Shown here one piece after another: positions 20,701-54,707 of a DNA stretch of 64,000 nucleotides; positions within the stretch are counted from its first letter, which is position 1; each line of letters opens with the position of its first letter. Made by a program: the position numbers and the translations under genes. Under the pieces are notes generated by a model. The model made no database searches. It saw nothing but the letters and a program-made list of their open reading frames with translations, and was not told the DNA's origin. The DNA comes from Uruburuella testudinis. GTDB taxonomy: Bacteria > Pseudomonadota > Gammaproteobacteria > Burkholderiales > Neisseriaceae. The stretch spans positions 2,728,001 to 2,792,000 of the forward strand of contig NZ_CP091508.1 in NCBI RefSeq assembly GCF_022870865.1, written 5' to 3'.

Positions 20701-21351
20701 TTATAACAAAGCATTATAATATTTATATGCTGAATCCATGTTTTCAAATTTGTGCATATGGCCGGCCTCCAGCACCATCGCATTGTCGCAATATTGTTTC
20801 ATGGCGCTGTGGCTGTGCGACACCAAAATAATCGAACGGTCTTTGCGTTTCTCAAACAGCTCATATTTACACTTGGCCGAAAACCGCGAATCGCCGACGG
20901 CAATCACTTCATCAATCAGATAGCAGTCAAACTCAACCGCCAGCGACAAAGCAAACGCCAGCCGCGCCTTCATCCCTGATGAATAGCGCTTTACCGGCTC
21001 ATAAAGATATTGCCCCAGCTCGGAAAAGTCTTCGGTAAACGCCTTCACATAATCGACATCAACATCATAAATGCGGCAGATAAAACGCAGATTGTCCATA
21101 CCGGTCAGGCTGCCCTGAAAAGCACCGCTAAACGCCAGCGGCCACGAAATGCTCATCGTGCGCTTGATTTCGCCTTCAGTGGGCGCTTCCACACCGCTGA
21201 CCAACCGGATAAGGGTGGATTTACCCGCACCGTTGCGCCCCAAAATGCCGATTTTTTCGCCTTTTTCCAGCTTAAAATCAATATTGTTCAACACCGTTCG
21301 CCAACCGGAACGGGTGCGGTAACGTTTAGATACATGCTCAACCGAAATCAT
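20701..21351 (-). CDS. ctrD: Capsule export ABC transporter ATPase CtrD (KpsT)
   Basis: A 216-residue ATPase that powers export of the lipid-linked capsular polysaccharide across the inner membrane with CtrC. The Walker A motif is GRNGAGKST at 38-46. The short family-typical ABC signature is [12 protein letters not shown] (122-133), and the Walker B motif CYLIDEVI has Asp147/Glu148. The H-loop is ILVSHS. Length equals that of meningococcal CtrD. Its start overlaps the end of ctrC by four bases (ATGA). It is last in ctrA-B-C-D. Confidence 0.97.
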
Positions 21352-22145
21352 TGCGGCTCAACCCCTTTACTGAAATTGCTGACCATGGCCAAACCCAGCA
21401 GCAGCAGCACCAGATTACACAACAGCAGATACCACGGATTCTCATAAGTGGTTACCGAGGGGCCGAAATAGCCGGCACGAAACATCTCTGTACCGTGCAC
21501 CATCGGAATCCACAATACATACTGCTGAATTTTGGCAGGCAATACATGCACAAAGAAAAACACACCGGAAAGCGGCATCATCAAAAAACTCAATGTGCCC
21601 CAGATTTTGCCGAATGCTTCAAATTTATATGCCACCGAGCAAATCACCAACCCCAAACCCACGGCAAACATCGCCATCAGCATCCAAGCAACCAGCATAT
21701 AAAACATATCATATGGCGGCTCAATCCAAGACATGGCGATAAAAAGGCTCATAATCACGATTTGGGCAATCGTTGCGCCGGAAATTTCCAGCAGCATGCG
21801 CGCCAGCAAGGTATCCAATACCCGCACATTGCGGTGATACAGCAAACTGATATTGGCATTGATTGCGCCGATAGCACGAGATGAAGCGCTCCGCCACATC
21901 ATCATCATCGGGTAACCGGTCATCACAAAAGCAAACATATTCAACGAGGAAACCTGGTTGGCACGAAAATAGCCCCACAAACCGACAATTAACAAGGTCA
22001 TCAGCAACGGCTCGACAAACAGCCACAAAAAGCCGATATTGTTGCGTCCGTAACGGGTGATGATTTCTCGCATCAGCAAAGCGCCGATCACCCGCACCTG
22101 AATCGCCAATGATTCGAGAAATGAAGTTTGATGCAAAGCTTTCAT
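21348..22145 (-). CDS. ctrC: Capsule export ABC transporter permease CtrC (KpsM)
   Basis: A 265-residue inner-membrane protein of the ABC-2 permease family with about six hydrophobic helices. The N-terminal segment [22 protein letters not shown] is the conserved amphipathic start of the family. It forms the translocation channel for the capsule polymer with CtrD. The start codon overlaps the ctrB stop by one base (TGATG) and the end overlaps ctrD, so ctrB-C-D are translationally coupled. Confidence 0.96.
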
Positions 22146-24103: not shown

Positions 24104-24127
24104 CCATTCAATATTTTAAAAACTTGC

Positions 24128-24164
24128 AGGCCGTCTGAAAGCATATACAGCTTTCAGACGGCCT
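24128..24164 (-). terminator. Inverted DUS hairpin between ctrA and ctrB
   Basis: AGGCCGTCTGAAAG and its exact inverse with a 9-base loop, 5 bases past the ctrA stop and about 25 bases before ctrB. Placed inside the operon, it could attenuate ctrBCD relative to ctrA or act only as an uptake signal. Confidence 0.6.
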
Positions 24165-24169
24165 CTTCA

Positions 24170-25354
24170 TTAATTGGCGATATTATCAACGCTGTTCACA
24201 CCGCTAACCACCGGTGAGAACACAAATTGTAAGAATTTCTGCACTTCGGCCAAAGGCGCATTCGACACATAAACCACATCTTTGTCTTTTACCGGAAAGC
24301 GTTGCAGCCAAAATAAAGAGTTCGCATCTGCCAGATTCACACGATACACCACCGGAATCTCCGCATCATAAGTATATCCCTTGGCCAGCCAAGCACCCTT
24401 ATCCTGCTCCGGCAAATCCGCCAGCGGCTCATAACGGAACACAAATACCCCGCGCGCATCCGAACGGCGGTCTTGCAAACCGCCCATCCGGCCGACTGCT
24501 TCCGCCAGCGACAAGCCCCTTACCGAAAAGCCCACCTGCTGCGAACGGCCGACCGCACCCATCGAAGTAAAGCTATACGGATTGGTGATAATCGTGACCA
24601 CGTCGTTTTTACGCAACACAATATTCTGGCGCGGATTGGCCACCAAATCTTCCAGCGCCACCTGCTTCACCTCATTGCCGCGCGTCAGCTGCACCGTGGT
24701 ATCCTGCACATTCGCAGTCGAACCACCTACCGCCGCCACCGCATCCAACACCCGCTCGCCCGCCGCCGTCAACGGCATACGCACACTGTTACCGGCACGC
24801 ACCACCGACACATTGGCCGCATTATTCTGCACCATGCGCACCATCACCTGCGGCTGGTTCGCCATCCTTTTCAGACGGCCTTTGATAATTTCCTGAATCT
24901 GCCCCGGCGTTTTACCGCTCACCGCAATATCGCCCACAAAAGGAATCGACACCGTGCCGCGCTCGCTCACCATCTGCTCCGGCAGCTTGGTCAACTGCGC
25001 ACTGCCCGATCCGCTGGACGTTAACGACCCGCCAAACAACACCGCCGGCGGCGCTTCCCAAATGGTAATGTCTAGCACATCACCAATATTCACCGCGCCC
25101 ACAGAAGCACGACCTTCGCCCAATTGGGCAAAAGATTGATTATTTTTTTGCTGATACAGCTTACGCACCAAGCTTTCATCAAGATCAATGACTTCCACTT
25201 CGGGCACAGCCGCCGTTGCCTGTTGCTCACTTAAAGCCACCACTTTTTTACCGCTGGGGCCGGAAGTGGGGAGGCCTGCGCATGCCGACAACAGTAGAGC
25301 TGTCATCACGCCCTGCACACCATAACTACCAATCCGTAGAAAATATTTATTCAT
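24170..25354 (-). CDS. ctrA: Capsule polysaccharide outer-membrane export lipoprotein CtrA (Wza/KpsD family)
   Basis: The outer-membrane channel of the capsule exporter. From ATG 25354 it is 394 residues with signal MNKYFLRIGSYGVQGVMTAL and lipobox LLSAC (Cys25). The poly-export domain is clear: VNIGDVLDITIWEAPPAVLFGG and GTVSIPFVGDIAVSGKTPGQ. SLBB-type repeats follow: VRAGNSVRMPLTAAGERVLD and GLSLAEAVGRMGGLQDRRSDAR. The C-terminus PLAEVQKFLQFVFSPV matches meningococcal CtrA. Upstream in-frame starts at 25372 and 25381 are possible but add no signal features. First gene of ctrABCD, transcribed away from the capsule synthesis genes. A DUS core is embedded in the coding sequence near 24875. Confidence 0.95.
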   Translation of the reverse strand: MNKYFLRIGSYGVQGVMTALLLSACAGLPTSGPSGKKVVALSEQQATAAVPEVEVIDLDESLVRKLYQQKNNQSFAQLGEGRASVGAVNIGDVLDITIWEAPPAVLFGGSLTSSGSGSAQLTKLPEQMVSERGTVSIPFVGDIAVSGKTPGQIQEIIKGRLKRMANQPQVMVRMVQNNAANVSVVRAGNSVRMPLTAAGERVLDAVAAVGGSTANVQDTTVQLTRGNEVKQVALEDLVANPRQNIVLRKNDVVTIITNPYSFTSMGAVGRSQQVGFSVRGLSLAEAVGRMGGLQDRRSDARGVFVFRYEPLADLPEQDKGAWLAKGYTYDAEIPVVYRVNLADANSLFWLQRFPVKDKDVVYVSNAPLAEVQKFLQFVFSPVVSGVNSVDNIAN

Positions 25355-25713
25355 GCTTAAAATACCACTCATCAATCTCAATAATTATCGAATAAAATCT
25401 ATTGTACTCGGAATATTACACCATTTAACTACAAACTCACAATTAGCTCACCCCGGACATTAACCAATGAATTATTATACATAATTATAATAATTAAATT
25501 TACCTATTTGGCAAATTTTCAACACGTCATTACTGTATAACAATGCCATTCACAACATTTTTTGACAAAAAACTTAAAAGCATCTATTCAAACTAAAGCA
25601 CTTGCTTTAAAATTTAAAACAAAATAATTTCATCAATACCCTACCCATTTACAAAATCCTCTACACACAAATACTAAATAAACTAATCTAAAGTTATTAA
25701 AAAGGTTATCACT
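25355..25713. promoter_or_regulatory. Divergent control region of the capsule locus
   Basis: About 360 A+T-rich bases between ctrA and the first synthesis gene. On the ctrA side there are overlapping TATAAT-like boxes (ATTATTATAATTATG and TATAATAAT, plus-strand 25471-25500). A perfect palindrome AAAGCACTTGCTTT lies at 25595-25608. A weak TTTACA/ATACTA pair precedes the plus-strand gene (about 25648-25675). Exact start sites cannot be fixed by eye. No homopolymeric phase-variation tract is present. Confidence 0.5.
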
Positions 25714-27309
25714 GTGGCAAAAATTCTTGTTGTAGGACATCCCGACTCCGACTACCAAATCATAGAAACACTATTACACGAAGTTGGTATGCGCCCTGCC
25801 CTTCCCTCAAAACGGGAAAAAATGTCACCATTAGAGATTGACGCGGCACTATTGAAAGCCACTCCCAACACTTCAACCAACCAATCCTTGCAGGCAAGCA
25901 ATAAAATCACAAACCGCCAACTGACCGTCAATGCCGTATGGCATGGGTTAGCGATGGATTTGTTTTTAGGAAATATTGATCAATCCCTATGGGGCTGGGC
26001 AGACCCGCAAGCACTCTACCTGCTTGACTATTGGCAAAAAATGGATGAAAGCATTCATTTTGCCTTGGTATACGACCACCCCCACAGCATATTGACGCAT
26101 CATCAAGACTTACTTGACAGCGATGCAATCGAACAAAAGCTACAAGAATGGATTGACTACAACGAAGCACTGTTGCATTTTTATTCACGCAATCAAGAAC
26201 GCTGCCTGCTAGTAAACAGCCAACAAGCCAAGCTTTCCTCCAGCAGCTACATTCAACAAGTGCAACTGCACATTGAGGCACCGTGGCAAAATTCCATAGT
26301 AAAAAACTCCACCTTAGCAACACAAAGCAAAAAATTGGACAAATCCTTGCCATTCAAGCCACTGGGCACTACCAGCCCACCAGATCAATTGGCGCACTTT
26401 TTAGCAGACTTTATCATTAAATCACACCCCAGCGTAACGCAACTCTATCAAGAGCTGCAAGCCAGCGCCAGCCTGCCCTTGCGCAAAGATTCACACCTGC
26501 ATGCGGATAATCAACCCGCCGTTTTAGCATGGCAAGCGATGGTACAACAACGCCGACAGCTCGCCGAGCAAACTACCGCTATACAGCAAAACAACACCGA
26601 ACTGACAAGCATCCGCCAAGAAAATAATCTATTGCTCAACCAGCTACATACTACTCAGGAAGCCTTTGAAAGCATACACTTAACACATAAAAACACTGAA
26701 GACCTGCTCAATACTGCTGTGCAGGAAAAAAACGACACTCTCAAAAAAATTAATCTATTAGAGCAGGAAAAACAGCAAGTATTAAACAAGTACAAACAGT
26801 TGGAGCAAGAAAAGCAACAAACCCTTAGCCAGTACAAGCAACTGGAGCAAACTCAAGGCCGTGCTCTTCAAGAAAGAGAAAACGACAATAAACAATTATT
26901 GGCCCAGTTACATCATACACAAGAAGAGCTGGAACGTTTATTTTTAGAAAATCAGCGCCTAAACGCACTCCCGGTATATTACGGTGCCGCCGAACGGATA
27001 CGAAGCCAACTGGATTACCGCCTCGGTGCTGCCATGATCCAAAATAGCAGAAATATCAGCGGTTGGCTGAATATGCCGTTTGCCCTGTTGAAAGAACATC
27101 GCAAACCCATCTCAAGCGAAACTGGACTTCCTGCTATAAGTGAATATCAAGATGCCTATGAAGCAGAAAAAATGCAACGTCATTTATCTTACCAGCTTGG
27201 CCAAACGCTCTTGAAACACAGCCGCAACCCCCTTCTTTGGCTGACGGCACCTTGGGCACTAAGCAAAACCGTCAGAGAATTCAGAAAGCAAGCAAAACGA
27301 TCAAAATAG
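25714..27309 (+). CDS. Capsule-locus protein of unknown function with central coiled coil
   Basis: A 531-residue protein I do not recognise. Residues 1 to about 240 look like a globular alpha/beta domain opening MAKILVVGHPDSDYQIIETL; the pattern and the ...HPDSD... loop are faintly like sulfotransferase/kinase-type folds, but no intact P-loop is present. Residues 270-420 are a Gln/Glu/Leu/Lys-rich coiled coil with near-repeats (KQQVLNKYKQLEQE, KQQTLSQYKQLEQ). The C-terminal 110 residues contain two related blocks (YRLGAAMIQNSRNISGWLNMPFAL and YQLGQTLLKHSRNPLLWLTAPWAL). The GTG start has AAAGG ahead of it. First gene of the synthesis operon, A+T-rich compared with the flanking chromosome. Possibly an accessory of polymer synthesis or chain modification; that is a guess. 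Confidence 0.75.
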   Translation: MAKILVVGHPDSDYQIIETLLHEVGMRPALPSKREKMSPLEIDAALLKATPNTSTNQSLQASNKITNRQLTVNAVWHGLAMDLFLGNIDQSLWGWADPQALYLLDYWQKMDESIHFALVYDHPHSILTHHQDLLDSDAIEQKLQEWIDYNEALLHFYSRNQERCLLVNSQQAKLSSSSYIQQVQLHIEAPWQNSIVKNSTLATQSKKLDKSLPFKPLGTTSPPDQLAHFLADFIIKSHPSVTQLYQELQASASLPLRKDSHLHADNQPAVLAWQAMVQQRRQLAEQTTAIQQNNTELTSIRQENNLLLNQLHTTQEAFESIHLTHKNTEDLLNTAVQEKNDTLKKINLLEQEKQQVLNKYKQLEQEKQQTLSQYKQLEQTQGRALQERENDNKQLLAQLHHTQEELERLFLENQRLNALPVYYGAAERIRSQLDYRLGAAMIQNSRNISGWLNMPFALLKEHRKPISSETGLPAISEYQDAYEAEKMQRHLSYQLGQTLLKHSRNPLLWLTAPWALSKTVREFRKQAKRSK

Positions 27310-27478
27310 GCCTCCGAGTCTTTAATACGCTCATGCTCTTTCAGACGGCCGCATTAAAAGATAAATAACATACAAAATCATAATTTTTAATACAATAAAT
27401 ACTGTTATGCCCACTTACACTTAACAGCAGTTATTGCAGCACCACAGTTAAAACAACCTCCCTGCCGAGTAATATGCC

Positions 27479-29251
27479 ATGCCCATCTATTATCCGAAAT
27501 CAATTCAGTGGCTCACACAGCTTGCCATACTCTTTCCCATCAAACATGTATTGTTGATTGGAGCCAGTAGTGGCGCTTGTGAATGGTTGGGTTGGCTGCA
27601 GCAACAAACCATTCCCCATGTTACTTTAATTGAAACCAACCCTGGAGACCATCCTATTTTACAGACAGAAACCAACATACCTTCCGACTGGACAATCTAT
27701 AACCAACTGATTGCAGAGCACACCGGCACAACCACTTTCTACCACGCCAGCCTCAGCAGCGAAAGCGGTCTGATTGCACCTGAAAAATTAACCGCCATTT
27801 GGCCCAATATCCAAACTACCCAACAACAAAACCTAGCCGCGCTATCACTACAAGATTTTACCTTAAAGCAAGACTTGCAGCCTGAACTATTGATTATCAA
27901 CTGTTTTGGGGCGCAATCACTGCTCCAACACACCACCGACTTGCTTCAGCATACTAATATCATTATTGCCAAAACCAGCCTTGATATAGAAAATCTACCT
28001 GAAGCCGATTTAACAGCTTTGGCTGAATATTTACATGCACAAAATTTCAAATTAATAGCAACAGAGTCAGGGCGCCATCCCAAAGTTGCCTATGCAATAT
28101 TTGTAAAAGACCATGCCAAGTTAAACCGGATAACCTTCCGGAAATACCAATCCGCTACACAACAAAACCAAGCTCAACAAACTGAAAAAAAGGTATTAGA
28201 GAAGCATCTTACTCAACTCAAACAAGAGCTGGTAGCCATACAAGAAAAAAACTTTAAACACGTTAAAAAATGGAAGCAAACAGCCAAAAAATATAAATAT
28301 AAATTTTCCGAACTAGAAAAGAAACATGAACAATATACCCACGCCTTACCGACACAACAACGCGAGTTATTCGATCAACAGCAAGAACAACTGCTACAAT
28401 ATCTGAATACTCTATTCCGGACACAAACAGAACAAACAGCAAGTTTATTAGCCACTCAAATAGACCGCTTGACGTCTAAAAACGTTGTGCCCGATTACAA
28501 CGAAACCATTCAAAAAACTGAAAAAAATGTTATTAATACACTAACCCAGCGCCTCAATAACAGCACTTCTCAAATTGAGGCCTATATTGCCATTCACAAT
28601 TATCTGAATACCGGCAGTCTGCTCTCAGGCTTCCATGGCTGGCCCATCAGCCCCGATATCGGTCTGTTTATCATCAACCAAATGCGCCAAAAACAATATG
28701 ATTTAGTGATAGAATTCGGCAGCGGCACCTCCACTCTACTGTTTGCTAAACTTGCAGCCGCAAAACACCACCAGCCACTGATGAGTGATTTACTGCCGCA
28801 AAAAATTCTCTCATTCGACCACCATGCCGATTACTATCAGAGAACCCAAGTACTTTTAAACACCAACCAAGTGGCCAAACATGTTGACTTAGTACATGCG
28901 CCCCTGATTGAATGGCAGAAAAATGAACAAACCTTTTTATACTATGACTGTGAAGCTACACTGCAACAGTTAGCGCAAAATCTACAAGGTAAATCAGCTA
29001 AAATATTGGTATTAGTTGATGGCCCACCGGGGGATACTTGCAAAAATGCTCGCTATCCGGCCGTACCGCTTTTATTCAAATATTTAGCAGAACATCAAAT
29101 TGATATAATTTTAGATGATGCTACGAGGCCTGAAGAAAGAGAAGTTGCCGCAAAATGGCAAAATTTTCTCAGTAACTGCCAAATTGCTTTTTCTGACGAG
29201 AAAATCATTAATGAAAAAGGAATTTATTTTGTGAAAACTGCTAACTCATAA
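27479..29251 (+). CDS. Capsule-locus two-domain methyltransferase-like protein with coiled coil
   Basis: A 590-residue protein with three parts. Residues 1-215 form a Rossmann-like domain (HVLLIGASSGACEW, then LIETNPGD) resembling FkbM/SAM-methyltransferase folds with non-canonical motifs. Residues 220-350 are a Lys/Gln/Glu-rich coiled coil. Residues 370-590 form a second, more convincing class I methyltransferase-like domain with LVIEFGSGTSTLLFAKLA (motif I) and ILVLVDGPPGDT. Two such folds joined by a long coil is unusual. In a glycosaminoglycan capsule locus it could modify the polymer, cap chains or act as a scaffold. I cannot tell which, nor whether it binds SAM. A single uptake-sequence core lies in the gap before it (about 27340). 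It is followed 12 bases later by the polymerase gene. Confidence 0.75.
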   Translation: MPIYYPKSIQWLTQLAILFPIKHVLLIGASSGACEWLGWLQQQTIPHVTLIETNPGDHPILQTETNIPSDWTIYNQLIAEHTGTTTFYHASLSSESGLIAPEKLTAIWPNIQTTQQQNLAALSLQDFTLKQDLQPELLIINCFGAQSLLQHTTDLLQHTNIIIAKTSLDIENLPEADLTALAEYLHAQNFKLIATESGRHPKVAYAIFVKDHAKLNRITFRKYQSATQQNQAQQTEKKVLEKHLTQLKQELVAIQEKNFKHVKKWKQTAKKYKYKFSELEKKHEQYTHALPTQQRELFDQQQEQLLQYLNTLFRTQTEQTASLLATQIDRLTSKNVVPDYNETIQKTEKNVINTLTQRLNNSTSQIEAYIAIHNYLNTGSLLSGFHGWPISPDIGLFIINQMRQKQYDLVIEFGSGTSTLLFAKLAAAKHHQPLMSDLLPQKILSFDHHADYYQRTQVLLNTNQVAKHVDLVHAPLIEWQKNEQTFLYYDCEATLQQLAQNLQGKSAKILVLVDGPPGDTCKNARYPAVPLLFKYLAEHQIDIILDDATRPEEREVAAKWQNFLSNCQIAFSDEKIINEKGIYFVKTANS

Positions 29252-29263
29252 ACAGAGAACATC

Positions 29264-31354
29264 ATGAAAAAAATATTAAGCGAAGCCATTGCCCAGTATG
29301 AAAATCAAAATTATCTAGCAGCCTTAGACCTATTTGAGCAAGCTGCAGCAATATATGGAGAAAAAATAGTTGCTTTACACATTCAAAAATGCCGTGCAGC
29401 ACTAAAAGATGCAGATGCATCTTTTAGTGCTGCACCCGCAGTCGCTCTAGTTTTAGCAAACGTACCCTCCAGCCTTGATCCAGCAACCAAGATTTTATTA
29501 AATAACCAAAAATCTATTCAACTTTCAGACGGCGAAAGAAACAATTTGCTGCAAGCGTGGAAGCAGGCCACGCACAAAAAATCAGAAAGTGTTGAAGCTA
29601 AAAAAGTTAATCCGATTCCTGCCGATTGGCCGAAAGACTTACAGTTGGCTCCTTTGCCGGAGGGACCAAACGATTACGTTTGGCACCAACGTAGAAAGAA
29701 TAACCTAAATCACTCACAGAGCCTCAGCGCAGGATTATCAGTGATTGTGCCCACATTCAACCGCAGTTGGATTTTAGATATTACCTTAGCCTGTTTAGTG
29801 AACCAAAAAACTAAATTTCCATTTGAAGTTATTGTGGCTGATGATGGCAGTAAAGAACAAATAGTTGATATTGTAAGAAAATATGAAGATAGCTTAGATA
29901 TCAAATATGTCCGTCAACACGATTACGGCTATCAGCTCTGCGCAGTACGCAATTTAGGATTGCGTACTGCAAAATATGATTATGTATCTATTCTGGATTG
30001 CGACATGGCACCGAATCCCGTCTGGGTGCAATCCTATCTGCAACGCTTACTTAAAAATGATGATGTTGCACTAATTGGACCACGTAAATATGTTGATACC
30101 CATGGCCTCAAAGCAGCCGACTTTCTAGCCGATAAAGATTTGGTTAACAACTTGCCAGAAATTAGATCTAGCAACACAGTCGCCAGCACACAAACCCCCA
30201 TAGCCTCTGTTGATTGGCGCTTGGAACATTTCGCCAAAACCGACAACTTACGTCTGTGCGATTCGCCATTCCGTTATTTCAGTGGAGGCAATGTTGCCTT
30301 TGCAAAAAAATGGCTTGATAAAGCCGGTTGGTTTGATGAAGCATTTACCCACTGGGGCGGTGAGGATAATGAGTTTGGTTATCGACTGTTTAAAAAAGGC
30401 TGCTTCTTTCAAGCATTAGAAGGGGGAATGGCCTATCATCAAGAACCGCCCGGCAAAGAAAACGAAACCGATCGTGCAGAAGGCAAAAAAATCACCATCA
30501 ATATCGTAAAAGAAAAAGTGCCTTATTTTTACCGCAAGCCCATCCCATTGGAACACGATGTTATTCATGCAGTGCCTTTGGTGTCGATTTATATTCCTGC
30601 ATACAATTGCGCATCTTCCATTGTGCGTTGCGTAGATAGTGCTCTTAACCAAACCATCACTGACCTTGAGGTATGTATTTGTGATGATGGCTCAACCGAC
30701 AATACCTTAGCGGTTATCCAACAACGCTATGGCAACCATCCGCGTGTGAAAATCATGACCAAAGCTAACGGCGGTATTTCTACCGCCTCTAATGCGGCCG
30801 TCAAAATGGCCAACGGCTTTTATATCGGTCAACTGGATTCAGATGACTATCTCGAACCCGATGCCGTCGAACTCTGCCTGACTGAGTTCCTGAAAAACCG
30901 CAAACTAGCTTGCGTCTATACCACTAATCGTAATGTCAACCCTGATGGCTCGCTGATTGCCAACGGCTACAACTGGCCGGAATTTTCACGCGAAAAACTT
31001 ACCACTGCTATGATTGTGCACCACTTCCGTATGTTCTCTGCTCGAGCATGGCATCTGACTGATGGTTTTAACGAGAATATTGCCAATGCCGTTGACTATG
31101 ACATTTATCTAAAATTGAGTGAAGTCGGTGAATTTCAGCATATCAATAAAATTTGCTACAATCGGGTGTTGCATGGTGAAAATACATCGATAAAAAAACT
31201 TGGCTTACAAAAAGAAAATCACTTTAAAGTAGTTAATGCTTCTTTAGCAAGACAAAATAAAGTTGACTATCAATATACACCCCAGGATCTAGAAGATAAT
31301 GCAAGCCGGAAATACTTATTTAAGCTAAGCAATCAACAAAAAGGAAATATATAA
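29264..31354 (+). CDS. kfoC: Chondroitin synthase-like bifunctional capsule polymerase (KfoC/PmCS/PmHAS family)
   Basis: A 696-residue cytoplasmic polymerase with two GT-A domains. The short N-terminal helical region (YENQNYLAALDLFEQAAAIY) is typical of the family. Domain A1 (about 150-400) has VPTFNRSWILDITLACL, DYGYQLCAVRNLGLRTAKY, the metal-binding DCD at 245-247 and HWGGEDNEFGYRL. Domain A2 (about 430-680) has SIYIPAYNCASSIVRCVDSA, DSD at 525-527, NRNVNPDGSLIANGYNWPEF and a family ending. From memory it aligns nearly end to end with E. coli K4 KfoC (686 aa; DCD 241, DSD 519) and more distantly with Pasteurella HyaD. In KfoC, A1 adds GalNAc and A2 adds GlcA. Polymer identity (chondroitin rather than hyaluronan) is inferred from this closer resemblance. 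Confidence 0.93.
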   Translation: MKKILSEAIAQYENQNYLAALDLFEQAAAIYGEKIVALHIQKCRAALKDADASFSAAPAVALVLANVPSSLDPATKILLNNQKSIQLSDGERNNLLQAWKQATHKKSESVEAKKVNPIPADWPKDLQLAPLPEGPNDYVWHQRRKNNLNHSQSLSAGLSVIVPTFNRSWILDITLACLVNQKTKFPFEVIVADDGSKEQIVDIVRKYEDSLDIKYVRQHDYGYQLCAVRNLGLRTAKYDYVSILDCDMAPNPVWVQSYLQRLLKNDDVALIGPRKYVDTHGLKAADFLADKDLVNNLPEIRSSNTVASTQTPIASVDWRLEHFAKTDNLRLCDSPFRYFSGGNVAFAKKWLDKAGWFDEAFTHWGGEDNEFGYRLFKKGCFFQALEGGMAYHQEPPGKENETDRAEGKKITINIVKEKVPYFYRKPIPLEHDVIHAVPLVSIYIPAYNCASSIVRCVDSALNQTITDLEVCICDDGSTDNTLAVIQQRYGNHPRVKIMTKANGGISTASNAAVKMANGFYIGQLDSDDYLEPDAVELCLTEFLKNRKLACVYTTNRNVNPDGSLIANGYNWPEFSREKLTTAMIVHHFRMFSARAWHLTDGFNENIANAVDYDIYLKLSEVGEFQHINKICYNRVLHGENTSIKKLGLQKENHFKVVNASLARQNKVDYQYTPQDLEDNASRKYLFKLSNQQKGNI

Positions 31355-31355
31355 A

Positions 31356-32504
31356 ATGGAATTTCTTAATATTCAATTAAGCTCTATTACATTGGATTCT
31401 CAGCTAAATACTTTAAGAATCCCTCCAAGAAAAGAAGAAGAACAGCAAAGTAATTATAAAGAACTATTTGACTATTCTACCCTTTTTTCCGACATATATC
31501 GAACAGAAACGTCAATTGAGCTTTTAGGCCCTCCACTGATGAATTTAAAATCCATCTTACAAAATAATGGTGGTCTTTTTATCAACGGAAGAGATTACAC
31601 TCATCTCGCTAAATTTACTGATAATTATAGAATAGGCAAGACTATCATTCCTGATATTCGGGACGCAAAAGAAATTCAAATCCACTTTGAAAATGAAATA
31701 TTTACTCGTAAAATACAACCTAATCATTATGATTTTTTCAAAGATCATAATGTTTTAGTCACACAGCAAAAAGACAACCCATTAGAATGGATTTCCTACT
31801 GGGTTCGATTTCATGTTAAGTTTCATGAAGTGGATAGTATTTTGCTATATGACAACAATAGCATATCTTATACCACCTCTCAACTAGAAGGTTTATTATC
31901 ATCAATTGAAGGCCTCAAAAAAGTTTGTGTTATTAAATGGCCGATTCCATTTGGGCCTACAGGTGGCCCAAAATCAGTTTGGGACTCTGACTTTGGTCAA
32001 CATCAGGCTTGGGAACATGCTTTAACACGATTTTTATTTCAAGCAAACTGTGCCATTATTGGTGACATAGATGAGCTCCCTGCTCATGAAGACAATTCTA
32101 GTATCCCATCTATTTTATCAGCTATTGATGAGCCCGTTTTATCCTATAAACGTAGGCAAATTATAGAGGTTGCAAGCTGTGATGAGTATTTTAACCTACC
32201 AAGGCTTCATTGTTATAGCCATTTATATGAAAAAGATAAATCAGTAATTGCACCAAAGTATTCTATTAACCCCAAAAAAATCGCTCGAAATAGCCATCTA
32301 TTAGTTCATCAAGTTATAGGAAACAAGGTAAATCATAGTGATAAAATAATATCTAGGCATTTTGGAAATTTAAGAATGGATTGGCGTAATAATAATTACG
32401 TACCTATTAAATTGAAAACAATAGATATGTTTTCAAATGAGCTACTAGAGGATAATTTTATTAGAGACTGTTTTTCTCAAATAAATACTAGCTGGCTGAA
32501 ATAA
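31356..32504 (+). CDS. Glycosyltransferase-like protein, GT92/DUF23 type
   Basis: A 382-residue protein. The stretch NPLEWISYWVRFHVKFHEVDSILLYDNNS has the shape of GT92-type transferases (W-x2-Y-x-x-H ... hhlYDNnS), and the later GDIDELPAHED supplies the expected DxDE metal motif. The C-terminal HLLVHQVIGNKVNHS could hold a catalytic His. No signal peptide. It begins two bases after the polymerase stop with an AAGGA ribosome site, so it is tightly coupled to it. It is the most A+T-rich gene of the locus by eye, suggesting separate acquisition. It may add a side-branch sugar to the GAG backbone, as KfoE adds fructose in E. coli K4, but I see no evidence that it is a KfoE homologue. Confidence 0.7.
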   Translation: MEFLNIQLSSITLDSQLNTLRIPPRKEEEQQSNYKELFDYSTLFSDIYRTETSIELLGPPLMNLKSILQNNGGLFINGRDYTHLAKFTDNYRIGKTIIPDIRDAKEIQIHFENEIFTRKIQPNHYDFFKDHNVLVTQQKDNPLEWISYWVRFHVKFHEVDSILLYDNNSISYTTSQLEGLLSSIEGLKKVCVIKWPIPFGPTGGPKSVWDSDFGQHQAWEHALTRFLFQANCAIIGDIDELPAHEDNSSIPSILSAIDEPVLSYKRRQIIEVASCDEYFNLPRLHCYSHLYEKDKSVIAPKYSINPKKIARNSHLLVHQVIGNKVNHSDKIISRHFGNLRMDWRNNNYVPIKLKTIDMFSNELLEDNFIRDCFSQINTSWLK

Positions 32505-32541
32505 TATATTTTGAATATTTCTTATTCATGAGTGTAAAAAT

Positions 32542-33711
32542 ATGACAATTACTATTACTGGAACAGGCTATGTTGGCCTTTCTAATGCCATCCTGCTAGC
32601 ACAACATAATCAAGTCATTGCATTGGATATTGATGCTGCTAAAGTTGCTCTCTTGAATAATCATCAATCTCCAATTGTAGATGCGGAAATTGAAGATTTT
32701 TTGATAAACAAGCCTTTAAATTTTCAGGCAACATTGGATAAACAATCGGCTTATGCAAATGCTGATTTTGTGATTATCGCCACACCCACAGATTACGACC
32801 CACAAAGCAACTATTTCAATACCCAATCGGTGGAAGCGGTTGCACGGGATGTATTATCGGTTAATCCAAATGCACTGATGATAATAAAATCAACCGTACC
32901 AGTGGGCTTTACCGAACGTTTAAAGCAGCAACTAGGTACAAAAAACATCATTTTCTCGCCTGAATTTCTGCGCGAAGGCAAGGCGCTATATGATAATCTT
33001 TATCCAAGCCGAATTATTGTCGGCGAACGTTCGGCACGGGGTCAGCAGTTTGCGGACTTACTGAAATCGGCGTGCTTTAGAACTGACGTGGAAGTATTAC
33101 TCGTAGATAACACGGAAGCGGAGGCCATCAAGCTGTTTTCCAATACATATTTGGCAATGCGCGTGGCCTATTTCAACGAACTAGATACTTATGCTTCTGT
33201 CCATGGCTTAAATACGAAGCAGATTATCGACGGCGTTTGTTTGGATCCGCGTATCGGCAGCCATTATAATAATCCGAGTTTCGGTTACGGCGGCTATTGT
33301 CTGCCGAAAGACACCAAGCAACTGTTGGCCAATTATCAAGATGTGCCTCAAAACTTAATCAATGCCATTGTGGAGGCCAATCGCACCCGCAAGGATTTTA
33401 TCGCCGAAGATATTCTCAAGCGTAATCCGAAAACCGTGGGCATCTACCGCCTGATTATGAAAGCGGACTCGGATAATTTCCGTGCATCTTCCATACAGGG
33501 TATTATGAAACGCTTAAAAGCCAAGGGCATTGCTGTCATTGTGTATGAGCCGGTATTACAGGAAGTGGAATTTTTCCACTCTAAAGTAGTCAATGATTTG
33601 GCTGAATTTAAAGCTGTTTCGGATGTGATTGTTGCCAATCGGGTAACCGATGATTTGCAAGATGTGCTAGATAAGGTATATAGCCGTGACTTATCCGGCT
33701 CTGATGCCTAA
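32542..33711 (+). CDS. ugd: UDP-glucose 6-dehydrogenase
   Basis: Oxidises UDP-glucose to UDP-glucuronate with two NAD+, supplying the uronic acid of the capsule. The 389-residue protein has the N-terminal NAD-binding [15 protein letters not shown] with Asp acceptor (ALDID), the mid-protein [11 protein letters not shown] and [12 protein letters not shown], and the catalytic Cys253 in [13 protein letters not shown]. It has the short form typical of capsule loci (KfoF, KfiD, HyaC, FcbC). Its place next to the KfoC-like polymerase strongly supports a GlcA-containing polymer. Confidence 0.96.
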
Positions 33712-33781
33712 AAACGCTACAAAACTACAGATTAGATTTGGAAGGAGCCCCATTTAATTTGTCTTAAAACTGATTAAATGT

Positions 33782-36162
<2,381 letters not shown>

Positions 36163-36291
36163 TTATTAAAAGTTTGATAAACAATCACTGAATACTAAGC
36201 TTTATTAATTTTCAACTACTTAACAACGCTGACTAAATCTTGATTACATCTAAATTTTAAGTTACCGAAATAATAGCTCGAAGGAAAATAA

Positions 36292-37170
36292 ATGAAACAA
36301 ATCAAAAAAGCTGTCTTCCCCGTAGCAGGTATGGGTACCCGCTTTTTACCAGCGACCAAGGCTAATCCGAAAGAAATGCTGCCGATTGTCGATAAGCCAT
36401 TGATTCAATACGCGGTTGAAGAAGCTGTTGCTGCCGGTTGCACAGAAATGGTATTTGTAACAGGGCGCAGCAAGCGCAGCATTGAAGATCATTTCGATAA
36501 GGCTTATGAGCTAGAAACTGAATTGGCTCTTCGTAATAAAAACAAGCTGCTCAAGCATGTGCAGGATATTCTGCCGCCTGAAATTACTTGTATCTATATA
36601 CGCCAAGCTGAAGCCTTGGGCTTGGGGCATGCTGTATTGTGTGCACAAGCTGCCGTAGGAAACGAACCCTTCGCAGTAATTCTGGCCGATGATTTGATTG
36701 ATGCACCACAAGGCGGTTTGAAACAGATGGTGGATATCTACAATCAAACAGGCAACAGCGTATTGGGGGTTGAAATGATTGATCCTGCTCATACTGCCTC
36801 TTATGGTATCGTAGAAACGGAACAACTGCGTAACTATACCCGTATCACCAATATCATCGAAAAGCCAAAACCTGAAAATGCACCTTCGAATTTGGCAGTG
36901 GTGGGCCGCTACATTCTCACCCCTCGGATTTTCGAATTGCTTACCGATCTGCCCCGTGGAGCCGGTAATGAAATCCAACTTACTGACGGCATTGCCCGTT
37001 TATTGGATCATGAGTTTGTATTGGCACACACCTTTGATGGTAAGCGCTATGACTGTGGTAGCAAAATCGGCTACTTGGAAGCAACTCTTGCCTATGGCTT
37101 AAAGCATCCCGAAACCGGTGAGCAATTCAGTGCTCTACTCAAACAATATGCAGAAACGTTAAGCAAATAA
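36292..37170 (+). CDS. galU: UTP--glucose-1-phosphate uridylyltransferase
   Basis: Makes UDP-glucose from UTP and glucose-1-phosphate, the precursor for Ugd and GalE. The 292-residue protein starts [29 protein letters not shown], with the nucleotide-binding GMGTRFLP loop. It has the usual [22 protein letters not shown] (metal Asp) and [15 protein letters not shown] sites. A clear GAAGGA ribosome site precedes the ATG. A 129-base gap separates it from kdsA, so it may have its own promoter. Confidence 0.97.
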
Positions 37171-37426
37171 GTTCATATTCATTTGAAATATTACTTCAGC
37201 CTGCTTTAATACTTCTTTTGTATTTTTTCTACATTTTTTGGTGGGGAAAATCTGCATACAGTTTCAACATTCGATTGCTAAAGCAAGGTAGTAGCCAAAT
37301 TTATCAGGGCCATTGATTCATTGCATATTCAAAGCGACTGCAACAAATTCGCTCTATGATTAATTTGTAAATTGCAACCCTGCGTTTCAACCACCATGAA
37401 GGCTTTTGTTAGGATACGATTTTATT

Positions 37427-38443
37427 ATGACCATTCTTGTTACCGGCGGCACCGGCTTTATCGGCTCTCACACCGTTATTGAGCTTATACGGGCCGATTA
37501 TGATGTGGTGATTTTGGATAATTTGTGCAACTCTTCACCTAATATTCTGCCGCGCCTACATCAAATTACCGGATGTAATATCCCTTTTTATCAAGGTGAT
37601 ATCCGCGACCGTAGCATCTTAAAAGAAATTTTTTCCAAACATGAAATTTCTACGGTGATGCATTTTGCCGGCTTAAAAGCCGTTGGTGAAAGCACGCAGA
37701 TGCCGGTTAAATATTACGACAATAATGTGGTCGGCAGCCTGATTTTGGCCGAAGAAATGGCCGCCGCCGGTGTTTTCAATATTGTGTTCAGCTCATCAGC
37801 TACTGTGTATGGCAATCCTGAGCGCACACCGATTACGGAAGACATGCCCACCGGCGGCACCACCAATCCGTATGGCACCTCCAAATATATGGTCGAGCGT
37901 ATTTTGGCCGATATTCAAAAAGCCGACCCGCGTTGGAGCGTGATTCTACTGCGTTATTTCAATCCGGTTGGTGCTCATGAAAGCGGGCTGATCGGCGAAC
38001 AGCCAAACGGTATTCCCAACAATCTGCTGCCGTATGTCTGCCAAGTGGCTGCGGGCAAGCTGCCTTATCTGTCGGTGTTCGGCGATGACTATCCAACACC
38101 GGATGGCACCGGGGTACGCGATTATATTCATGTGGTCGATTTGGCCAATGGCCATCTGAAAGCTATGCAGGCAAAAAGTAACCAAGCCGGTGTGCACACT
38201 TATAACTTAGGCACCGGTAACGGCTATTCGGTATTGGAAATCATCCGCGCATTCGAACAAGCTTCAGGGCTGCATATTCCCTATCAAATCCGCCCGCGCC
38301 GGCCGGGGGACATTGCCACCTGCTTTGCCGACCCGGCTTACACAACGGCACAAACAGGCTGGCGGGCCGAACGAAACCTGCATCAAATGATGGAAGACGC
38401 ATGGCGCTGGCAAAGCCAAAACCCTGACGGATATCATCAATAA
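37427..38443 (+). CDS. galE: UDP-glucose/UDP-GlcNAc 4-epimerase
   Basis: An NAD-dependent short-chain dehydrogenase-type epimerase interconverting UDP-Glc/UDP-Gal and, in many bacteria, UDP-GlcNAc/UDP-GalNAc. The 338-residue protein has [16 protein letters not shown] (TGxxGxxG), the catalytic SSSATVYG and [11 protein letters not shown] (Tyr-x3-Lys). The start at ATG 37427 has AGGA upstream; the TTG 21 bases earlier is unlikely. If the capsule is chondroitin, UDP-GalNAc must come from an epimerase such as KfoA in E. coli K4, and this GalE is the candidate in the locus. Whether it accepts UDP-GlcNAc cannot be read by eye. Confidence 0.95.
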
Positions 38444-38470
38444 AGGCTTCTTTAATATTGCATCCTTATC

Positions 38471-38516
38471 AAAGGCCGTCTGAAACTTTTCTATTTCAGA
38501 CGGCCTTTGTTTTTTT
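38471..38516 (+). terminator. Inverted DUS terminator of galE with T-run
   Basis: AAAGGCCGTCTGAAA and its inverse around a 9-base loop, followed by GTTTTTTT, 28 bases past the galE stop. A good intrinsic terminator, which separates galE from kpsC transcriptionally. Confidence 0.85.
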
Positions 38517-38589
38517 ATCGAATTTACTCATACCCAAACAATATTGCATGTTAAAATAGTCTACCATTTATCTGTTAATCAAACCACTT

Positions 38590-40653
38590 GTGAACACAGC
38601 CCTTATTTTCTCCAACGGCATCTGGCGTATTGCGCACCTTGCCGCTTTTTTGCCGGAATATCATTTGCAAAAGGCACGTGCTTCGGCGCCCGACGATGCA
38701 GTGGTTATCGGCTGGGGTTTGCGCCCTTCCACACAAAAAGCCCGTGCTTATGCCAAGCGGCACGGGTTGCCGTATATTGCACTGGAAGATGGTTTTTTAC
38801 GCTCGTTGGGTTTGGGGGTGGCGGGCTGGCCGCCGTTTGCTTTGGTGCATGATGATTTGGGTATTTATTACGATACCACCCGCCCTTCCCGTTTGGAGCA
38901 GTTGATATTGGCGGCAGACAAGATGCCGTCTGAACAACTGGCTGAAGCTGAACGGGCCATGGCTTTAATCGTGGCAGACAAGCTTTCCAAATACAATCAT
39001 GCGCCCGATAACTCATATAGGCCGTCTGAAGCCGGAAAAGACATTGTATTGGTTGTCGATCAAACGTTTGGCGATATGGCGGTGCAATATGGCGGGGCGG
39101 ATGCGGCCTCGTTTGAAACAATGTTTCAGACGGCCTTAGCTGAAAACCCCAATGCAGAAATTTGGGTCAAAACCCACCCCGATGTATTAAGCGGCAAAAA
39201 GCGCGGCTATCTTACCCGGCTTTCCTCACAAGCAGAAAATTTGCGCCTGCTGGCTGAAGACATCAATCCGATTTCACTGCTGCAACAAGTAAGCAAAGTC
39301 TATTGCGTTACCTCGCAAATGGGTTTTGAAGCACTGATGTGCGGCAAGCCCGTGACAACATTCGGCTTGCCGTGGTATGCCGGTTGGGGCGTCAGCGACG
39401 ACCGCCACCCCCAAGCCGCAGATTGGCACAAGCAAGGCCGTCGTGCACCGCGCACACTGCCGCAGCTGTTTGCCGCCGCCTACCTGCAATACAGCCGCTA
39501 TATCAACCCCAACACGGGCGAACCGGGCACGGTGTTTGATGTTATTGATTATCTGGCCGCCGCCCGCCGGTTAAACGAAAAACTGCGTGGCGATTTATAT
39601 TGTGTGGGCATGTCGCTGTGGAAGCGGGCGGTGATGCGGCCTTTTTTCAATGTGCCCTCATGCCGCCTGCACTTTGTTTCATCATTGAAAAAGCTGCAAT
39701 CGGCACGGCTGCCCAAAAATGCGCGTCTGCTGGTCTGGAGCCGCGGCAACGATGCCCTGATTGATTTCGCCCACCGGCAAAAACTGCCGCTGCTGCGCAT
39801 GGAAGACGGTTTTATCCGCTCGGTGGGTTTAGGCTCAAACCTGGTGCCGCCGCTCTCATTGGTGGTGGATGATATGGGCATTTATTTCAATGCACAAACC
39901 CCTTCCCGCTTAGAACATATCCTGCAACACCACCATTTTACCGCGCAAGATCTTCGGACGGCCTCAGCCTTGCAAACTGCACTCACAGAAGCCGCCATCA
40001 CCAAATACAACGTTGGCGGCAACAGCCTGAGCCTGCCCGACACCGATCAAAAAATCCTACTCGTGCCCGGCCAGGTTGAAGATGATGCCTCTATCCGCTA
40101 CGGCTCACCAAAAATTAATAAAAATCTCGACCTGCTCAAAAAAGTGCGCACGCTCAATCCAGATGCCTACATTGTTTACAAACCGCACCCCGACGTGGTG
40201 AGCGGCAACCGCACCGGCCATATCCCTGCCGCACAAAGCCGGCAGTTTGCCGACCAAGTGGCCTCAGAATGTGACATTCTCACCTGTCTGCAACAGGCCG
40301 ACGAAGTGCACACCATGACTTCGCTGACCGGCTTCGAAGCGCTGCTGCGCGGAAAACACGTGCATTGCTATGGGCAGCCTTTTTACGCCGGCTGGGGGCT
40401 CACCCACGATTACCTGCCCCACCCGCGCCGCACCCGCCGGCTGAGCTTGCAGGAACTAATTGCCGGCACACTCATCTATTACCCGAGTTACATTCACCCC
40501 GACACAAGGCGCATGGTCGATGCAGCCAGCGCCATTACCATTTTGAAGCAGCAAAAAAAGATGCTGAAAAACAACAATCCGCTACACCGCAGCTGGCTAA
40601 GCAAGCAAACCGGCAAAATAAAGCAGCTGTATTTGTCGTTCAAACAATCTTAA
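38590..40653 (+). CDS. kpsC: Capsule beta-Kdo transferase KpsC (LipA/CtrE)
   Basis: A 687-residue cytoplasmic protein made of two related glycosyltransferase modules, each with the same motif set: DGFLRSLGLG near 77 and DGFIRSVGLGSN near 407; KTHPDVLSGKKRGYL near 195 and KPHPDVVSGNRTGHI near 530; GFEALMCGKPV / GFEALLRGKHV followed by YAGWG. KpsC extends the beta-Kdo linker that joins group 2 polysaccharides to a phosphatidylglycerol lipid; in meningococci the gene is lipA/ctrE. It has a GTG start, with a weak ribosome site. Several uptake-sequence cores are embedded in the coding sequence (for example near 39010 and 39124). Confidence 0.95.
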   Translation: MNTALIFSNGIWRIAHLAAFLPEYHLQKARASAPDDAVVIGWGLRPSTQKARAYAKRHGLPYIALEDGFLRSLGLGVAGWPPFALVHDDLGIYYDTTRPSRLEQLILAADKMPSEQLAEAERAMALIVADKLSKYNHAPDNSYRPSEAGKDIVLVVDQTFGDMAVQYGGADAASFETMFQTALAENPNAEIWVKTHPDVLSGKKRGYLTRLSSQAENLRLLAEDINPISLLQQVSKVYCVTSQMGFEALMCGKPVTTFGLPWYAGWGVSDDRHPQAADWHKQGRRAPRTLPQLFAAAYLQYSRYINPNTGEPGTVFDVIDYLAAARRLNEKLRGDLYCVGMSLWKRAVMRPFFNVPSCRLHFVSSLKKLQSARLPKNARLLVWSRGNDALIDFAHRQKLPLLRMEDGFIRSVGLGSNLVPPLSLVVDDMGIYFNAQTPSRLEHILQHHHFTAQDLRTASALQTALTEAAITKYNVGGNSLSLPDTDQKILLVPGQVEDDASIRYGSPKINKNLDLLKKVRTLNPDAYIVYKPHPDVVSGNRTGHIPAAQSRQFADQVASECDILTCLQQADEVHTMTSLTGFEALLRGKHVHCYGQPFYAGWGLTHDYLPHPRRTRRLSLQELIAGTLIYYPSYIHPDTRRMVDAASAITILKQQKKMLKNNNPLHRSWLSKQTGKIKQLYLSFKQS

Positions 40654-40699
40654 ATGTTATATTTACACATTACTGCAAAAAAACGATAACAAACCCGCC

Positions 40700-42001
40700 A
40701 TGGCCAAAACCGAACCCATTAAAAGCTATCTGCAAGAATTAGCCGACACAGCCAACCGTATCCTGCTGCTGCAAGGGCCGATCGGCCATTTTTTCAGCGA
40801 CTTGGCCGACTGGCTGCAACAGCGCGGCAAAGTCGTGTTCAAGCTGAATTTCAATGCCGGCGACACCCTGTATTACCCCGAAACCCGGCCGAACACTTTT
40901 ACCTATACCGATACCTTTCAAAACTTCCCTGAGTTTTTAGCCGCCTTTATTGCCGAACACCATATTCAAGCCATGGTTTGCTTCGGCGACACCCGTCCTT
41001 ACCATATGGCAGCCAAAAAGCTGGCCGACCGGCTCGGCAACGTGAGCTGCTGGGCATTTGAAGAAGGCTATTTCCGCCCCTACTTCATTACTTTAGAAAA
41101 ATGCGGCGTTAACGCTTATTCGCCGTTGCCGCGCGATGCCTATTTTTTTACCAAAGCCTATCCGCGCCTGAGCGAGCAAGAATACCGCGACCCGATGCCG
41201 GTGCCGGCAGGTTTCTTACCAGTGGCCAAACACGCCATCCGCTATTACGTGGCCACCTATCTGCACCGAAACCGCTACCCAAACTATATCCACCACCGCA
41301 TTACCGATATCGGCCACTACGTCAAACTGTGGACACTCTCGGGCCTCAAACGGGTCAATTACGTTTTCCAAGACCGCCATTTCGCCAAACAGACCGAAAA
41401 CGGCAAATACGGCAAATTTTTCATCCTGCCGCTGCAAGTATTCAACGACAGCCAAATCCGGATGCACAGCGATTTTTCATCTGTGCGCAACTTTCTGCTG
41501 CACGTGCTGACTTCATTTGCCGCCCACGCCCCGGCCGACGTCAACCTGATTGTCAAACACCACCCAATGGACCGCGGTTTTATCGATTATCAAAAAGACA
41601 TCCGCCACTTCATCAAAAAACACCCCAAGCTCAAAGGCCGCATTTTTTATGTACACGATGTGCCGCTGCCGGTATTTCTGCGCCACGGCATCGGCATGGT
41701 AACCCTCAACAGCACCAGCGGCCTTTCCGCACTGATTCACAATATGCCGGTAAAAGTAATCGGCCGCGCCCACTATGATATCCCCGGCATCACCTTTCAA
41801 GACAAACTGGCTGATTTCTGGGTGCGCCCCACCCCGCCCGACCGCGACTTATTTCATGCCTACCGCATGTATCACATCAACGTTACCCAAATCAACGGCA
41901 GCTTTTACAGCCGGGTCAACTTTCCCGATGATGATAATAAAGCATTCAGGCCGTCTGAAACCCGCCGCGCCACCATGCAAACCGACAAAGCAGCCGGCTG
42001 A
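40700..42001 (+). CDS. kpsS: Capsule Kdo-lipid linker enzyme KpsS (LipB/CtrF)
   Basis: A 433-residue protein of the KpsS family, which places the first beta-Kdo on the lipid anchor of group 2-type capsules. Recognisable parts are [19 protein letters not shown] at the N-terminus, [47 protein letters not shown] and [19 protein letters not shown]. It follows kpsC by 46 bases and is the last gene of the capsule locus. An uptake sequence is built into its C-terminal codons (about 41949). Confidence 0.95.
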
Positions 42002-54106: not shown

Positions 54107-54413
54107 GAGCATTTTTCCTAATTTATGTGGTTTAAAGTAACTTTGAAGTACTTCAATTGCCTTATGACTATCAAAAACAACTGAGTGCACGGCTTAATAG
54201 CCCGGCTTTCAGCATCGCAACCGCCGCAAACCGGCAGATGACGAAATTTGTCACCCGTCGGCGCGGTGTTAACTTTTATATTTTCAAAAAAGTGTTTAAA
54301 ATTAAACAAGTTGTTTAAAATTTCAGATTCGCGGAAAACGCGATAAGATATTTCTAGCAATTTGCATGCCAATATGCAGCCGCCTGATTAGAACGGGGCG
54401 GATTGTTTTATAG
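54107..54413. promoter_or_regulatory. A+T-rich region upstream of the adhesin gene
   Basis: No gene. The direct repeat GTTTAAAATT occurs at 54294-54303 and 54313-54322, with TTTAAAC-type palindromic half-sites around it. It is the likely regulatory region for the adhesin. No long homopolymer suited to phase variation was seen. Confidence 0.45.
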
Positions 54414-54707
54414 GTGATTCAAGCAGTGATTGTTTCGCAAAATTATGAAGATTCTGACGAAAAATGTCACTTTAGTATAATTACCTTACTTTTAGTTGCC
54501 GCACCCTGTCTTAACCTTATCGCTTTTACTGCAAAAGGCTCCTTAGATTCGCATTTCAAACGCAACTTTGGTGTGATGGTATTGATGAACCCACTCGGCG
54601 GAAATATTATCCATACAATTCGTCAGGCGGGAAAACGCAGCACTTATGCGGCAATACTGAGAGCCATTCAAAAGAAAGGCATCAGCCAACGCAGACCGGA
54701 TGCTTGA
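54414..54707 (+). CDS. Doubtful small ORF
   Basis: A 97-codon frame with one hydrophobic segment (FSIITLLLVAAPCLNLIAFTA) and a basic tail. No family recognised and no good ribosome site. Its end runs into the first 335-bp repeat. It may be a gene fragment or chance. Confidence 0.25.
   Translation: MIQAVIVSQNYEDSDEKCHFSIITLLLVAAPCLNLIAFTAKGSLDSHFKRNFGVMVLMNPLGGNIIHTIRQAGKRSTYAAILRAIQKKGISQRRPDA

Follow-up and report, generated by a model that had tools for sequence, protein, structure and literature searches.

The window analysed here is a stretch of 64,000 nucleotides of Uruburuella testudinis, comprising bases 2728001-2792000 of a single-contig, 2.95-Mb genome, and all feature positions are given in window numbering. 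It carries a capsule locus of the group-2, ATP-binding cassette (ABC)-dependent kind with a bifunctional capsule polymerase of glycosaminoglycan (GAG) type, 696 amino acids (aa) long. The parts of a group-2 locus are all present (KpsMT/CtrCD, KpsE/CtrB, an export protein, KpsC and KpsS), with the KpsM and KpsS models scoring below their cut-offs, and the reading frames are all open and closely spaced. The original prediction, made from the sequence without database searches, had placed a two-domain polymerase of 696 aa on the forward strand at 29264-31354, with DCD at residues 245-247 and DSD at 525-527, and every one of these details was confirmed. The neighbours it had named (ugd, galU, galE, kdsA, kpsC and kpsS) were borne out by profile matches, those of ugd and kpsS partly below cut-offs, and the exporter genes ctrABCD do diverge from the synthesis genes, lying at 20701-25381 on the opposite strand. 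For galE, the gene stands and its start does not, 37424 being likelier than the listed 37406. Three genes of the locus were absent from that prediction: those for a KfoB-type, a methyltransferase-type and an orphan glycosyltransferase-like protein.

Compared loci are denoted by codes where they must be told apart: L005 is from Neisseria sp. MVDL19-042950, L007 from Escherichia and L016 from Bisgaard Taxon 45 (Pasteurellaceae); L020 and L021 are E. coli K4-related loci, and G043 is the nearest relative found by CtrB. The features of the locus are collected in Table 1, where GT2 denotes glycosyltransferase family 2, GlcA glucuronic acid and Kdo 3-deoxy-D-manno-oct-2-ulosonic acid.

Table 1. The capsule locus and its exporter genes, with the basis of each assignment; percentages are protein identities.
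Feature	Position	Strand	Basis
ctrD-type ABC transporter ATPase, 216 aa	20701..21351	-	ABC_tran; 91% to G043
ctrC-type permease, KpsM-like, 265 aa	21348..22145	-	ABC2_membrane; NF050053 KpsM 102 bits, below cut-off of 300
ctrB, BexC/CtrB/KpsE family, 652 aa	22145..24103	-	TIGR01010 504.9 bits, above cut-off of 437.5, residues 293-652
ctrA-type outer-membrane polysaccharide export protein	24170..25381	-	Poly_export and SLBB_2
AT-rich divergent intergenic region, presumed promoters for both operons	25382..25713	.	sequence; function by analogy
KfoB/HyaE-type protein, 531 aa	25714..27309	+	domains ~1-259, helix 267-410, C-terminal helices
590-aa protein with O-methyltransferase-like domain	27479..29251	+	C-terminal domain ~385-590
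chondroitin-type bifunctional capsule polymerase, 696 aa	29264..31354	+	A1 (hexosamine) ~156-430, A2 (GlcA) ~431-690
orphan candidate glycosyltransferase, 382 aa, directly 3' of polymerase	31356..32504	+	Glyco_tranf_2_4 E 0.013, below cut-off
ugd, UDP-glucose 6-dehydrogenase, 389 aa	32542..33711	+	TIGR03026 above cut-off; NF011631 657.7 bits, below cut-off of 757
GT2-family glycosyltransferase, 514 aa	33782..35326	+	Glycos_transf_2; 55% to L005, 41-42% to E. coli L020/L021
kdsA, Kdo-8-P synthase, chassis gene	35326..36162	+	NF009109 above cut-off; 95% to G043
galU, UTP--glucose-1-phosphate uridylyltransferase	36292..37170	+	TIGR01099 389 bits, above cut-off of 326.8
galE, Cys at E. coli Tyr299 position	37424..38443	+	TIGR01179 above cut-off; alignment
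terminator-like hairpin built from paired DNA uptake sequences	38470..38509	+	sequence scan
kpsC/ctrE, beta-Kdo transferase	38590..40653	+	Capsule_synth; 72% to L005, 51-53% to Escherichia L007, L020, L021
kpsS/ctrF, first Kdo transferase	40700..42001	+	NF050054 360.6 bits, below cut-off of 600; Capsule_synth

When the polymerase was searched against the PDB with phmmer, chondroitin synthase 2z86 was matched at 975.5 bits (E 1.1e-292) over query residues 70-686, and the best matches were the two crystallised E. coli K4 chondroitin synthase sequences, with the next family at 65 bits. The protein has two tandem Glycos_transf_2 stretches. Missing active-site residues had been named in the original prediction as what would count against it; the WGGED motif at 364-368 is intact, as are both DXD motifs. 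A heparosan synthase was considered and rejected, as heparosan synthase B aligns only at residues 430-561 with 44.7 bits. The earlier reading, a chondroitin-type GAG polymerase encoded within a complete group-2 capsule locus, is supported, and the best explanation, with a probability of about 0.8, is that the locus directs a capsule with an unsulfated chondroitin backbone, [-4)GlcA(b1-3)GalNAc(b1-]n, where GalNAc is N-acetylgalactosamine.

The polymerase gene was found in two of the 83 Neisseriaceae genomes searched (its own genome counted), both among the 46 of the genus Neisseria, and in five of 140 genomes of the Pasteurellaceae, the family of Bisgaard Taxon 45. Among 5426 complete E. coli genomes, 69 had a DNA match, always at 60-80% identity and never over as much as 80% of the query. 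GTDB contigs were scanned with exact peptide patterns, an approach that undercounts; this gave 12 loci, among them Neisseria sp. MVDL19-042950, Actinobacillus ureae, Avibacterium paragallinarum, Escherichia whittamii and Bisgaard Taxon 45. The remaining ones, L009-L015, are GAG-type polymerases in two Pseudomonas, two Microbulbifer, Oceanisphaera, Thalassotalea and Arsukibacterium; a ugd-like gene is present in the fetched stretch of L009-L013 (partial in L013), and none was found in the stretches of L014 and L015. Within the N-terminal part of the window's own polymerase gene, at 29394-29435, there is an inverted repeat of 19 pairs with a 4-base loop.

Trees were built from 17 polymerase sequences, namely that of the window, those of the 12 GTDB loci, two from E. 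coli and two from the Pasteurellaceae genome search. In the whole-protein tree, L005 is the partner of the window (100/100), and the two join five Pasteurellaceae sequences at 88/92, which is below the 95/80 mark, and the Escherichia sequences stand elsewhere. The claim that the protein follows KfoC more closely than Pasteurella HyaD finds no support when its full length is compared, its nearest non-Neisseria enzymes being those of the Pasteurellaceae. The identity is 77% to L005, 63.4-64.5% to L020 and L021, and 63.7% to L016. The L021 polymerase is itself to be regarded as a relative of K4 KfoC and not KfoC proper, since it reaches only 1128 bits against 2z86. An enzyme that makes hyaluronan, with N-acetylglucosamine (GlcNAc) in place of GalNAc as in Pasteurella type A, has to be weighed at this point: the class II hyaluronan synthases are closely homologous, L016, which resembles a hyaluronan synthase, equals the E. 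coli enzymes in its identity to the window, and the tree sets the window beside the group that contains L016. As this Pasteurellaceae group includes L016, the overall phylogeny is undecisive on chondroitin versus hyaluronan, and chondroitin is preferred because of the hexosamine domain, not because of overall identity.

Near the first DXD motif, L016 reads GFQASAARNMG, which we take to be the motif of Pasteurella HyaD and which underlies the hyaluronan label of L016; the other 16 aligned polymerases, the window included, read GYQLCA[VIT]RNLG (GYQLCAVRNLG in the window). Altogether, L016 stands apart at 18 alignment columns in which the remaining 16 sequences are invariant (15 are represented in the last column, where one row has no residue), and 16 of the 18 lie within the hexosamine domain (residues 156-430). 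The 2z86 sequence, which is outside the 17-sequence set, shares the window residue at all 18 columns, as judged by eye from the printed phmmer alignment. When L013, a broken gene, is left out, identity in A1 minus identity in A2 averages -9.5 points for pairs with L016 (n=15, range -15.0 to -6.0) as against -1.3 for other pairs (sd 3.4, range -12.4 to 8.9, n=105). The window itself has 69.5-70.5% identity in A1 and 71.8-74.1% in A2 to the two E. coli polymerases, and 62.9% in A1 and 76.4% in A2 to L016. In a tree of A1, L016 forms a long branch (0.57) beside the Pasteurellaceae sequence L022 (85/66) and the window lies elsewhere, with the deeper forks weakly supported. L016 diverges chiefly in the domain where the window keeps K4 chondroitin synthase residues, suggesting a hexosamine site of the K4 chondroitin-synthase kind and not a hyaluronan-synthase-like one, if the label presumed for L016 is right; hyaluronan appears an unlikely product. 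The L016 polymerase (L016 9992-12886), with its accelerated hexosamine domain, is a probable hyaluronan synthase and a handle for mapping donor specificity.

Several points weigh against a chondroitin product. The A2 domain of the window is nearer to L016 than to the E. coli enzymes by the percentages just given, and the Pasteurellaceae group that it joins has one hyaluronan-synthase-like member and excludes the E. coli enzymes. The 18 columns were defined from 16 sequences of which the window is one, some pairs without L016 show an A1/A2 contrast as large as that of the L016 pairs, and the hyaluronan type of L016 is our presumption. The galE gene belongs to the chassis, as in G043 a galE that also has this Cys lies next to a different set of synthesis genes and no GAG polymerase is present. 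KfoC can misuse UDP-Gal, as described in PMC7764085, and chemistry for this strain was not found.

In GalE, a small residue at the position of E. coli Tyr299 allows epimerisation of GlcNAc and GalNAc. By alignment, this gate residue is Cys in the window, L005 and G043, and the L007, L020 and L021 epimerases have Ser; the window GalE is predicted to interconvert UDP-GlcNAc and UDP-GalNAc as well. The suggestion in the original prediction that galE is a possible source of UDP-GalNAc thus fits a permissive gate, but it is not specific evidence, because galE and kdsA are shared with G043, whose synthesis genes differ. The dehydrogenase encoded by ugd is 64-79% identical to full-length counterparts in 10 of 14 compared loci, and the 514-aa GT2 gene is the counterpart of the GT2 gene that follows ugd in the E. 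coli K4-related loci, presumably kfoG.

From this gene content, we infer the sugars, linkages, order of steps and expression as follows. GalU and Ugd would provide UDP-GlcA, and GalE, or another epimerase, UDP-GalNAc. KpsS and KpsC would assemble the Kdo linker on lipid, and the chain would then be started by a transferase specific to the locus, for which the 514-aa GT2 protein is the likeliest candidate. The 696-aa polymerase would alternate GalNAc (site A1) and GlcA (site A2) at the non-reducing end, and the CtrABCD-type exporter would carry the chain to the surface. The 590-aa methyltransferase-like and the 382-aa glycosyltransferase-like proteins may decorate or cap the chain, so that the polymer in its native form may carry substituents on the chondroitin backbone, as K4 carries fructose.

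The surroundings of the polymerase suggest how the locus came to be composed. G043, the closest relative found by CtrB (86%), has the same capsule chassis (ctrDCBA 82-91%, kdsA 95%, galE 89%, kpsC 77% and kpsS 78% identical to the window), and its ctrA-kdsA interval holds a different gene set, starting with UDP-galactopyranose-mutase-like and GT2-like proteins (named by eye), in which the sole match to a cassette protein is a 95-residue GT2 stretch. Since a common chassis surrounds different synthesis genes in G043, 25714-35326 is read as the exchangeable region A, a swapped cassette. The mutase-like gene at the start of region A of G043 (L060, L059), named by eye, suggests a galactofuranose capsule there.

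The six cassette genes have 32.6-46.2% guanine plus cytosine (GC), the lowest being the 382-aa gene at 32.6%, against 50.0% for the window. The window contains 42 copies of the 12-base uptake sequence AGGCCGTCTGAA, where 0.01 would be expected, which points to the genus Neisseria; none of these exact 12-mers lies within 24882-35193, where only two (27340 and 29524) of the window's 49 10-mer cores are found. With these two cores, the cassette is not free of uptake sequences, and a longer core-free gap lies elsewhere, at 48725-54951, the longest in the window. Most of that gap is covered by the gene at 45983-54190 (reverse strand) for a YadA-type trimeric autotransporter adhesin of 2735 aa, with YadA stalk, head, anchor and ESPR, which lies near the capsule locus. 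The low GC and the scarcity of uptake sequences would agree with a cassette that is a recent import, silent or unused in a strain without such a capsule. This is improbable, as all frames are open and closely spaced and a related locus is kept in a second Neisseria species; low GC is, moreover, usual for neisserial region A according to PMC6202450.

The three genes that the original prediction lacked may bear on what is done to the chain. The 531-aa KfoB/HyaE-type protein has, in its predicted structure, a sulfotransferase fold (~1-259), a 144-residue helix (267-410) and C-terminal helices. The canonical 5'-loop for 3'-phosphoadenosine-5'-phosphosulfate (PAPS) has the motif PRSGTT, and the corresponding site reads GHxxSxY/F in all six aligned KfoB-type members. 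A sulfated capsule, which the fold could suggest, was rejected as the default and is very improbable: the canonical PAPS loop is replaced, and KfoB homologues occur in the E. coli K4-related loci, K4 being a nonsulfated chondroitin-like polymer as described in PMC12797221. KfoB is described as a protein of unknown function in PMC10609508 and PMC3673904.

The 590-aa protein has a Rossmann-like N-terminal domain (of low confidence and barely covered by the fold list), a coiled-coil-like middle (predicted local distance difference test score <50) and, at ~385-590, a class I O-methyltransferase-like domain, as seen in the predicted structure. For the 531-aa and 590-aa proteins, a Pfam search relaxed to E 10 was uninformative, and sequence searches of the PDB yielded only matches at E 0.17 or worse; the 382-aa protein had no PDB match. 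The 382-aa protein has no relative in the 14 loci or among the slot genes of 10 loci, in 368 other genomes of the class (an even draw, not the Neisseriaceae set as such) or in viral contigs; with a Streptomyces protein that is annotated as CapZ it shares 31.5% identity over 89%.

The mature polymer may be chondroitin in backbone but carry a side sugar, a methyl group or both, and so be antigenically not plain chondroitin, a possibility of slightly under even odds that overlaps with the best explanation. Related loci differ in the gene that fills the slot following the polymerase, that of E. coli L021 being perhaps kfoE, a fructosyltransferase, and in the window it is filled by the orphan glycosyltransferase-like gene; the O-methyltransferase-like domain of the 590-aa protein points the same way. 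On the other side, the glycosyltransferase assignment of the 382-aa protein is weak, its domain match falling below the cut-off, the roles of both proteins are predicted, and L005, L016 and E. coli L020 have no slot gene.

In the stretches of the 14 compared loci, the KfoB-type and 590-aa-type proteins never occur together: seven loci (including two nearly identical Escherichia loci) have the first, six the second and one neither. The window, unlike each of these, has both. With a catalytic-like domain joined to a long helix, their architecture has some likeness to that of WbdD, a capping enzyme of O-antigen synthesis with a coiled coil that sets chain length. The two types might act alternatively as WbdD-like terminators of GAG capsule chains, each with a ruler of its own, the locus making a capped and decorated chondroitin; this is a speculative and rather doubtful proposal, which, if true, would explain a gene family of unknown function.

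Neisseria capsules have hitherto been read as sialic-acid, hexosamine-phosphate or teichoic-like polymers. The window shares with the neisserial region A types of Clemence et al. 2018 (PMC6202450) the ctrABCD / region A / ctrEF layout and the low-GC region A. Dehydrogenases described there are of the N-acetylmannosamine type, and the terms chondroitin, hyaluron, heparosan and glucuron are absent from the main text of that paper, which mentions no GAG-type polymerase. The loci of N. brasiliensis and N. musculi, reported as serogroup B/X-like and serogroup I-like, were considered and are distinct from that of the window, and no account of such a locus in Neisseria was found in the open-licence literature. 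L005 has the ctr genes, KfoB-type gene, polymerase, ugd, GT2 gene, galE, kpsC and kpsS in matching order and in one run, but it is simpler, without the 590-aa, 382-aa, kdsA and galU genes.

Outside the genus, the E. coli K4-related loci L020 and L021 carry galE (an epimerase of the galE/kfoA type), a kfoB-type gene upstream of a polymerase of like length and two-domain layout, ugd and the GT2 gene downstream, and kpsC and kpsS. They differ in that their polymerase is not sister to that of the window in the tree and that they have no counterpart of the 590-aa and 382-aa proteins, whereas the locus of the window has a neisserial chassis and also contains kdsA and galU. Pasteurella multocida type F (FcbD) and type A (HyaD) were compared by proxy through L022, L006, L008 and L016, which provide the nearest non-Neisseria polymerases. 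A KfoB/HyaE-type gene lies upstream in L006, L008 and L016, as in the window, but the enzymes of L006, L016 and L022 are ~960 aa long with a C-terminal extension that the window polymerase lacks. Moraxella bovis, compared by its description in PMC12797221, likewise has a KfoC-homologous polymerase and group-2 export, and its capsule is chondroitinase-sensitive, with nuclear magnetic resonance showing unsubstituted GlcA-GalNAc; it differs from the window in having its capsule genes in separate subclusters and an unsubstituted repeat.

The system is of a known kind, in a genus for which no report was found, and with its extra genes a substituted or capped polymer is likely enough to deserve a test. 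A chondroitin-like coat would be host mimicry, and the GAG-mimicking capsules of E. coli K4, Pasteurella multocida and Moraxella bovis would extend to Neisseria. Because the cassette occupies an ordinary neisserial chassis (ctr ... kdsA, galE, kpsC, kpsS), GAG-type coats look to be part of the exchangeable capsule repertoire of the genus. The locus also supplies a diverged chondroitin polymerase and a handle on the function of KfoB.

Two features on the exporter side remain to be described. Promoters are presumed in the divergent intergenic region on the model of the region between ctrA and the synthesis genes in N. musculi, described in PMC9140248; a promoter scan of the divergent region gave 24 sites against 32.7 expected from shuffles, which is fewer than chance and uninformative. 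Within ctrB, 42.3 perfect copies of an 18-bp repeat at 23282-24043 encode 42 KQAEAA units near the N-terminus, before the conserved part of the protein. In 28 of 45 other genomes of the genus a CtrB match was found, with alignments from residue 217 or later and open frames of 378-442 aa, and G043 has one full KQAEAA unit and one partial. The expansion is presumably recent and length-variable, and the long KQAEAA helix might add to the control of chain length.

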